Shown: in pieces, positions 17,397-19,316 of the stretch
How the letters are laid out: every line of letters begins with the position of its first letter
Numbering within the stretch: the first letter of the stretch is position 1
Source of the DNA: Lachnospiraceae bacterium
GTDB lineage: Bacteria; Bacillota; Clostridia; Lachnospirales; Lachnospiraceae
NCBI GenBank assembly: GCA_021202635.1
Contig: JAJQCQ010000013.1
Span: 1 to 64,000, forward strand
Length of the DNA: 64,000 bases
Reading direction: 5' to 3'
Position numbers and translations under genes: made by a program
The notes under the pieces: model-generated
Seen by the model: the letters and a program-made list of their open reading frames with translations, nothing else
What the model was told of the DNA's origin: nothing
Database searches by the model: none

Positions 17397-18683
17397 ATGA
17401 AGAGAAAAATATTCTACCCATTGCTTGGTCTGACCGCGGCGCTGCTGCTTACCGCATGCGGCAGCAGCGATACCGGCTCCGATTCTTCCGGCAGTACCAG
17501 CTCCGATTCTACCGTAACAGAAGCGGAAACCGCGACAGAGGCGCAGACCGAGGTCTCCATTTCCTCTGTCGTTCCATCCGACTATCTGGTGGAAAATGCA
17601 GCCGATTATATCACAGCAGACGGATTGGAAGGCCTGGAAGTCACCCAGTATACGTATGAAATCACGGATGAAATGGTACAGGAGCAGATAGATTCGATTC
17701 TTGCCCAGATGAGTGAGGAGACAGATGTTGACCGTGCGGCCGAGATGGGAGATCTGGTCTACGTAGATCTTTCCTGCACGGTAGAAGGCAGCAGCGGCTC
17801 ATATACAGAAGACACCTACTTTACCCTCGGTGAAGCAGACTACGGGGAGGAATTTGACGCTGCCCTCGTGGGCGCGGCAGCTGGCGACACTGTGACCTTT
17901 GACATCACCTACGAGGAGGACGCTGCGGACGACACCCTGATTGAAGAAGACTGGGCCGGACAGACCGTCAGTTTTGAAATAAAGATCTCCTCTGTCTGCG
18001 AAGTCACTACCCCGGACTACAACGATGACTGGGTAGCAGAAAACACCGAATACTCCACGACGGAAGAATACGAGACCGCCCTGCGCGAAACCCTGGCAGA
18101 AGAATACGAGGAACAGAGCTACGCCGATGTCCTGGATGAGCTTCTTACCCTGGCTCTGACGAACTGTGAGATATCCGAAGTTCCGGACGATCTGTACGAC
18201 TCCTGCCGCGAAGAAACGCTCAATGATTACGCGTCCTTCACCAATTCCACCAAAGAAGCAGACATTCTCGCAGAATTTGACATGACAGAAGACGACCTGG
18301 AATCCGAAGTGCAGACACTTGCACAGCGCCGTCTGCTGATCAGCTACATCTGCGAGGAAAATGACATCACGCTTTCCAATTCCGACTATGTCGCCTATCT
18401 GGAAGAATACGCGGCGTATTACGGCTATGACAGCGCGGAAGAATTCGAGGAAGAATGGGGCCGTTCTTATCTCGTATGGAGCCTGTACGAAAGCGAAACC
18501 GCAAAAATACTTTACAGCTCCGCAAACATCACCACAAAAGCCTATGAGCAGATCCTCCTGACGGATGAAGAAGCAGACGAACTGGAGGCAGAAACTGCCT
18601 CTGCAGCGGATGAAAATCCGGACACTGCAGAGGCGGAAGACAGCGCTGCAGCAGAGGAAGCGATTCCGGAAAACGAGACCTGA
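17397..18683 (+). CDS. Lipoprotein with FKBP/trigger-factor-like PPIase and C-terminal domains
   Basis: Lipobox LLTACGSS; FKBP-like segment (GDLVYVDLSC...YFTLGE...FDAALVGAAAGDTVTFDITY) and trigger-factor C-like region. Confidence 0.82.
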   Translation: MKRKIFYPLLGLTAALLLTACGSSDTGSDSSGSTSSDSTVTEAETATEAQTEVSISSVVPSDYLVENAADYITADGLEGLEVTQYTYEITDEMVQEQIDSILAQMSEETDVDRAAEMGDLVYVDLSCTVEGSSGSYTEDTYFTLGEADYGEEFDAALVGAAAGDTVTFDITYEEDAADDTLIEEDWAGQTVSFEIKISSVCEVTTPDYNDDWVAENTEYSTTEEYETALRETLAEEYEEQSYADVLDELLTLALTNCEISEVPDDLYDSCREETLNDYASFTNSTKEADILAEFDMTEDDLESEVQTLAQRRLLISYICEENDITLSNSDYVAYLEEYAAYYGYDSAEEFEEEWGRSYLVWSLYESETAKILYSSANITTKAYEQILLTDEEADELEAETASAADENPDTAEAEDSAAAEEAIPENET

Positions 18684-18711: not shown

Positions 18712-18739
18712 TTGACACCCCTACATATTGTGCTATAAT
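18712..18739 (+). promoter_or_regulatory. Promoter for the cold-shock gene
   Basis: TTGACA (18712-18717), 16 nt spacer, TGcTATAAT (TATAAT 18734-18739). Confidence 0.8.
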
Positions 18740-18768
18740 GATCAGTGCTAAAGGATTGACAGGATAAG

Positions 18769-18837
18769 ATTTCACTAGCTGTTATAGATTATGAAATGTG
18801 CCGCCTTGTAATCTATAACAGTTAGTGAAATTTTTTT
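18769..18837 (+). promoter_or_regulatory. 23-bp leader hairpin with U-run (terminator-like) in the cold-shock gene 5' UTR
   Basis: ATTTCACTAGCTGTTATAGATTA / TAATCTATAACAGTTAGTGAAAT, one G-U, followed by T7; lies between promoter and CDS. Confidence 0.8.
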
Positions 18838-18872
18838 CCGGTTAAATAGCAATATTTTGAGGAGGTACCGAG

Positions 18873-19073
18873 ATGAATAAGGGTACAGTGAAATGGTTCA
18901 ACGCAGAGAAGGGTTACGGCTTTATTACAGGAGAAAACGGATCCGATGTATTCGTACATTTTTCTGCAATCCAGGGCGAAGGCTTCAAGACCCTCGAAGA
19001 AGGACAGGCAGTTTCTTATGATTTGACAGAAGGCGCTCGCGGAATGCAGGCTGCTAACGTGGTAAAGCTTTAA
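18873..19073 (+). CDS. Cold-shock protein (CspA family)
   Basis: [41 protein letters not shown]. Confidence 0.96.
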
Positions 19074-19087
19074 GAATATTGGTTGCC

Positions 19088-19126
19088 AAAAAAGCGCTGT
19101 CGCGTGACAGCGCTTTTTCTTTTTTT
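19088..19126 (+). terminator. Terminator after the cold-shock gene
   Basis: AAAAAGCGCTGTC-GCGT-GACAGCGCTTTTTCTTTTTTT. Confidence 0.92.
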
Positions 19127-19297
19127 GTAACAGTTCAGAACAGCATCGAAATGAAAAGACAGACTGTGCAGGTTTACCTGCTAAAGGCTGTATTTTCATT
19201 TCGGGATGGGCGGAACGCCCATCAAGCCACAGACATATGACGCGTTAGCGGCATATAGCCTGCATCGCAGGCGGTCTGCGGCCTGCTGTTCTGAATA
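19127..19297. repeat. Family B dispersed element, long composite form (about 170 bp)
   Basis: GTAACAGTTCAGAACAGC ... GCTGTTCTGAAT, with nested inverted repeats inside. Confidence 0.7.
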
Positions 19298-19316
19298 GAT
19301 ACCTTTTTTTATGCAC

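Follow-up and report, generated by a model that had tools for sequence, protein, structure and literature searches.

The cold-shock protein (csp) gene examined here, from a gut-type Lachnospiraceae bacterium, lies behind a leader RNA that is conserved, is specific to csp and contains a terminator-type hairpin, a statement that we regard as near certain. The element was previously uncatalogued and is an RNA family new to Rfam: an Rfam scan of the leader returned no family above the gathering threshold, the cspA thermoregulator included, and the sub-threshold matches were mostly to hairpin-type microRNA models. Our search of the open-licence literature likewise found no description of this csp leader element. 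The leader probably controls the amount of cold-shock RNA chaperone made, and we see an even chance that it is an attenuator that acts in cis, with the hairpin at its core, and belongs to one csp subtype in Clostridia. The tuning of Gram-positive csp genes is unsettled; in E. coli the Csp proteins are termed antiterminators, whereas in B. subtilis they favour termination. A terminator conserved in the csp leaders of many Clostridia offers a natural substrate for asking whether termination on csp genes is controlled by the Csp proteins themselves. The element also fills a gap in annotation libraries, as an RNA family that they do not yet contain.

Layout and fold of the csp leader

Within the window, by which we mean the whole 64,000-nt stretch of DNA that was analysed, all parts of the locus lie on the forward strand. 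The csp promoter (18712–18739) is of the sigma-70 type and matches the consensus at 12 of 12 positions, with a -35 TTGACA at 18712–18717, a 16-nt spacer, a TG before the -10 and a -10 TATAAT at 18734–18739. It is the top promoter-like site within 8 kb and places the expected transcription start near 18746. The 5' arm of the leader hairpin (18769–18792) is followed by a variable loop of about 15 nt (18793–18807) and by the 3' arm GTAATCTATAACAGTTAGTGAAAT (18808–18831), with a T7 tract right behind the stem (18831–18837). Next come a Shine-Dalgarno (SD) sequence, AGGAGG (18860–18865), which is mostly outside the predicted leader structure, and the csp open reading frame (18873–19073), which encodes a 66-aa CSD protein of the GFIT subtype (PF00313, E 2.6e-30); the leader is ~127 nt long. 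An ordinary GC-rich terminator (19089–19118) lies behind csp. An earlier note on this DNA had described the same succession of promoter, T7-tailed hairpin, SD and csp frame, which we confirm with a stem of 24 pairs (18769–18831).

RNAfold pairs up to 29 bp of the hairpin, which has 24 paired columns in the alignment. The leader has a folding energy of -48.1 kcal/mol, compared with -23.6 +/- 3.7 kcal/mol for dinucleotide shuffles (z -6.7), and none of 200 shuffles was as low. The hairpin is absent from the list produced by our terminator scan because the scanner allows loops of 8 nt at most. Across 72 distinct leaders 93% of stem cells are paired, as against 33–48% in slid-register controls; compensatory changes occur at nine of the 24 pairs, two-sided changes occupy 119 cells where shuffles predict 29, and G-U pairs are used. 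Covariation is free in the outer stem (AU, UA, GC and CG all occur at pair 11-68, for example), whereas the TCAC/GTG base of the stem, with TCAC invariant in the 5' arm, and an inner AGATTAT/TAATCT core, its 5' strand nearly invariant between families, hardly vary. In most lineages the core is broken by a G.G mismatch, which is replaced by a U-A pair in the window's genus. This two-zone pattern suggests that the outer stem needs pairing alone while the core may be recognised or used by something else.

Distribution among csp genes and genomes

The source genome contains one copy of the leader hairpin, before this csp gene; its second CSD gene is without the hairpin. Leader and gene together find a match in 55 of 60 related genomes, and congeners with a complete leader almost always have the hairpin. 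The earlier note had proposed a covariance-model search upstream of csp genes in relatives, and had named a lack of conservation in orthologous leaders as the outcome that would speak against its reading. In such a search the hairpin is present before csp in further genera, and both the hairpin and the T-tract are kept in orthologous leaders.

A degenerate two-gap pattern derived from the shared core was run in one scan over 84,980 species genomes (257 Gb) and gave 62 matches in 61 stretches, all but one of them upstream of a csp gene, at a distance of 38–146 nt for 59 matches and ~300 nt for two (L113 and L114). Matches come from Lachnospiraceae, Hominisplanchenecus, Fusicatenibacter, Robinsoniella, Niameybacter, Sporanaerobium, Cellulosilyticum, Fusibacter, Proteocatella and a Tissierellia bin, among others; Hominisplanchenecus faecis, Robinsoniella peoriensis and Fusicatenibacter saccharivorans are examples of carriers in culture. 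The pattern had no match in viral contigs, and we set aside a phage origin. With the covariance model, more diverged versions of the hairpin, likewise before csp, were found in further families and classes within the phylum; all matches there with E < 1e-4 precede csp, except for the unrelated hairpin L049. Matches L052 and L137–L140 were also rejected as unrelated hairpins.

Whole-genome covariance searches return scores for no more than a dozen or so candidates in each genome, such that absence from their output says little, and for this reason we read csp leaders directly. The sample from the window's family comprised 106 leaders, mostly one per genus, of which 17 have either the element itself or a sister form whose core is TTGTAAGTCATT; hairpin scores in this sample are bimodal. 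The element was found with 15 of 29 csp genes of the GFIT subtype and with two of 81 of other subtypes (p 7e-9, uncorrected for phylogeny). By this comparison of sequences, the hairpin is a feature that tracks one csp protein subtype, GFIT. Among 60 csp loci from the wider class and phylum, the covariance model gave no convincing csp-leader match.

Relatives of Cellulosilyticum, Sporanaerobium and Niameybacter (L043, L055, L077 and L114) have tandem csp genes or leaders, each with its own promoter and hairpin; L114 is a case of a tandem leader. In Niameybacter massiliensis (L079:977-1046 onward), a copy of promoter and hairpin precedes a gene that is not csp and encodes a 257-aa protein without a Pfam match; this gene may be a second target under the same control.

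Terminator signals, promoter and predicted read-through mRNA

A run of at least five T's stands behind the stem in 69 of the 72 leaders. The tail score, computed in the style of d'Aubenton-Carafa, averages 4.77 for the leader hairpins, compared with 4.02 for the hairpins that follow these csp genes and 1.44 at random sites, and the U-tract is conserved even though no A-tract faces it in most relatives. A promoter scoring at least 9/12 lies upstream of the hairpin in 70 of 71 leaders, and is 24–51 nt before it in 69 of 71; shuffled sequence contains such a score anywhere in 16 of 72 cases. The leader has two of the features expected of an attenuator leader, a stable hairpin between promoter and gene, and a conserved U-tract directly behind the stem. 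The earlier note had argued that a full terminator in this position implies conditional read-through; the part of this that stands is that a terminator-type hairpin with a U-tract sits in the csp leader, and we infer the read-through itself, conditional or partial.

The position of the promoter also bears on the suggestion, made in the same note, that the hairpin serves the upstream lipoprotein gene. The interval from the lipoprotein stop (18683) to the csp promoter contains no other clear terminator, and in the source genome the hairpin may stop read-through from upstream as a side effect. As a main role this is unsupported, since the csp promoter precedes the hairpin in 70 of 71 leaders. Moreover, the element goes with csp and not with any upstream gene: the upstream neighbour varies, and in ~19 genomes, as judged from the longest open frames, the upstream frame clearly points away, which argues that the element belongs to csp. 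We consider it extremely unlikely that the hairpin is merely a terminator for the lipoprotein gene. The lipoprotein itself (17403–18680) has a trigger-factor C-terminal match and a weak FKBP domain match, and looks like an extracytoplasmic foldase-like protein.

A second, lower helix is formed between the first nucleotides of the mRNA and the sequence just past the T-tract. Its 5' strand, in the minimum free energy (MFE) fold, consists of TGCTA (18746–18750), TTGAC (18756–18760) and GGA (18762–18764), and spans 18746–18764; its 3' strand (TCC, GTTAA and TAGCA; 18837–18851) exists in read-through RNA only. In swap tests within the window's genus, the two strands of a leader pair better with each other than with swapped partners (p = 5e-5, 13 leaders); beyond the genus the result is marginal (p = 0.054). 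The predicted fold closes the 5' end in 22 of 25 leaders of the genus, and leaves the SD at most partly paired in most. Given that the lower helix is possible only in RNA that extends past the U-tract, the shape of the read-through mRNA appears to be under selection too.

Proposed attenuation and its alternatives

Building on the conserved structure, U-tract, promoter distance, csp specificity and, within the genus, lower helix that the comparisons show, we propose the following sequence of events. Transcription would begin ~25 nt before the hairpin, and the nascent RNA would fold into a long hairpin followed by U's, forming an intrinsic terminator. Some transcripts would stop early as a short leader RNA of ~90 nt, with release predicted at the T7 tract (18831–18837), and the remainder would read through into csp. 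Cold or the Csp protein itself would most likely determine how much read-through occurs, so that the RNA chaperone is kept under homeostatic control. Transcripts that read through would, in the window's genus, fold the whole leader into a closed rod, with the 5' end paired and the ribosome site mostly free. We infer that termination takes place in vivo, that it is regulated, and which factor regulates it; attenuation in the csp leader is probably autoregulatory. Regulation by Csp is plausible by analogy with B. subtilis, where CspB and CspD change the extent of read-through at terminators and a point mutation in the 5' UTR of cspC raises its expression twofold (PMC8307031). A fuller version of this idea, with the element as an undescribed clostridial family of regulatory RNAs, seems to us somewhat doubtful: here Csp or another RNA-binding protein would bind the leader of its own gene at a putative site made up of the U-tract and the conserved inner stem, G.G mismatch included, and would thereby set the extent of termination.

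The csp leaders of B. subtilis cspB and cspC, with their cold shock boxes (PMC8307031), resemble the window leader in that a csp 5' UTR is a control region and Csp proteins affect terminator read-through; the excerpts of that paper mention no terminator-type leader hairpin, and the cold shock boxes are set beside our element by description. A terminator hairpin in a 5' leader is shared with the bacterial transcription attenuators surveyed in PMC2965389, but no sensor domain was found in the csp leader; the main text of that survey contains no mention of csp or cold shock. As a structured csp leader, the element is also similar to the E. coli cspA thermosensor (Rfam cspA family), although the window leader has no Rfam cspA match. 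The E. coli cspA RNA controls translation by refolding (cited in PMC3738593). Its leader is not known to contain an intrinsic terminator.

The earlier note had raised a temperature-responsive antiterminator. In such a riboswitch-like switch, a 5' antiterminator would compete with the terminator and prevail in the cold, and alternative pairings that form before the 3' arm can indeed be drawn in single leaders, such as ATTTCA/TGAAAT in the window and GTGGAT/ATTCAC in L065. We detected no conserved competing fold: prefix folds of 31 lineages were no better than shuffles (mean z -0.08), and pairing of upstream segments with the loop was no better than that of swapped pairs (p = 0.11). The stem is also predicted to be firmer in the cold (-32.7 kcal/mol at 37 C, -47.8 kcal/mol at 15 C), which disfavours a simple cold-opened switch, and we judge the thermoswitch quite unlikely. 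Copies of the stem base in the loop (TGAAAT and TTCACC) were rejected as a general feature, being limited to two clades, as was sequestration of the SD, since roughly half of the leaders have it paired and its partner is inconsistent. That prefix-fold and swap tests detected neither an antiterminator nor a sensor fold counts against attenuation more generally. A mutually exclusive antiterminator or sensor domain is what defines RNA-switch attenuators; protein-controlled attenuators need none. Two further points count against an attenuator: the stem is long and AU-rich with a loop of 10–20 nt, unlike textbook terminators, and the lower helix, selected in the genus, reaches beyond the U-tract and is thus a property of the full-length mRNA that is superfluous for termination.

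In the main rival to attenuation, the hairpin would be either a double-stranded leader domain that RNase III cleaves or a stabiliser at the 5' end. It would set csp mRNA stability and translation, and the U-tract would be a single-stranded Csp binding site instead of a terminator. The cspA mRNA of S. aureus has a 113-nt 5' UTR with a long hairpin whose cleavage by RNase III leads to higher stability and translation (PMC3386247). Judged by its description, that leader is like ours in gene, in length (~110–130 nt) and in having a long hairpin between the 5' end and the SD, and our hairpin is likewise near-perfect over at least 20 bp; its carrier belongs to a different class of Firmicutes from the window's bacterium. 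The lower helix keeps such a role viable, as it ties the 5' end into the rod in most leaders of the genus, with support from the swap test, and the internal G.G mismatch would suit recognition by a nuclease or another protein. However, in contrast to S. aureus, a strong U-tract directly behind the stem, needless for processing or stabilisation, is near-universal here, and the hairpin lies ~25 nt from the 5' end. The lower helix is also marginal outside the genus. We take RNase III processing or stabilisation to be possible rather than probable. An inverted repeat that binds a regulator as DNA, with an incidental RNA fold, could account for inner arms that are conserved in sequence, but not for the use of G-U pairs, the covariation of the outer arms, or a near-universal T-tract that is restricted to one side and to the csp orientation; we think it very unlikely.

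Several minor observations concern csp leaders and their surroundings. A short box, TTACAGAAA, recurs between the T-tract and the SD in leaders from Fusibacter, Proteocatella, Cellulosilyticum and Niameybacter (L068, L082, L087, L088 and L092), and is complementary to TCTGTAA of the hairpin 3' arm. A palindromic intergenic stretch behind the csp terminator (19120–19305) is a dispersed repeat with 64 matches in the source genome, ~20 of which are nearly full length at 73–99% identity; a further copy lies ~280 nt past the second CSD gene (G000:C61:9010-9193). Lastly, four loci (L145, L146, L154 and L187) have a different csp leader, with GGCCTC ~80 nt upstream as the complement of the SD region GGAGGCC and conserved sequence in between; from its sequence, this looks like another uncatalogued csp leader RNA.
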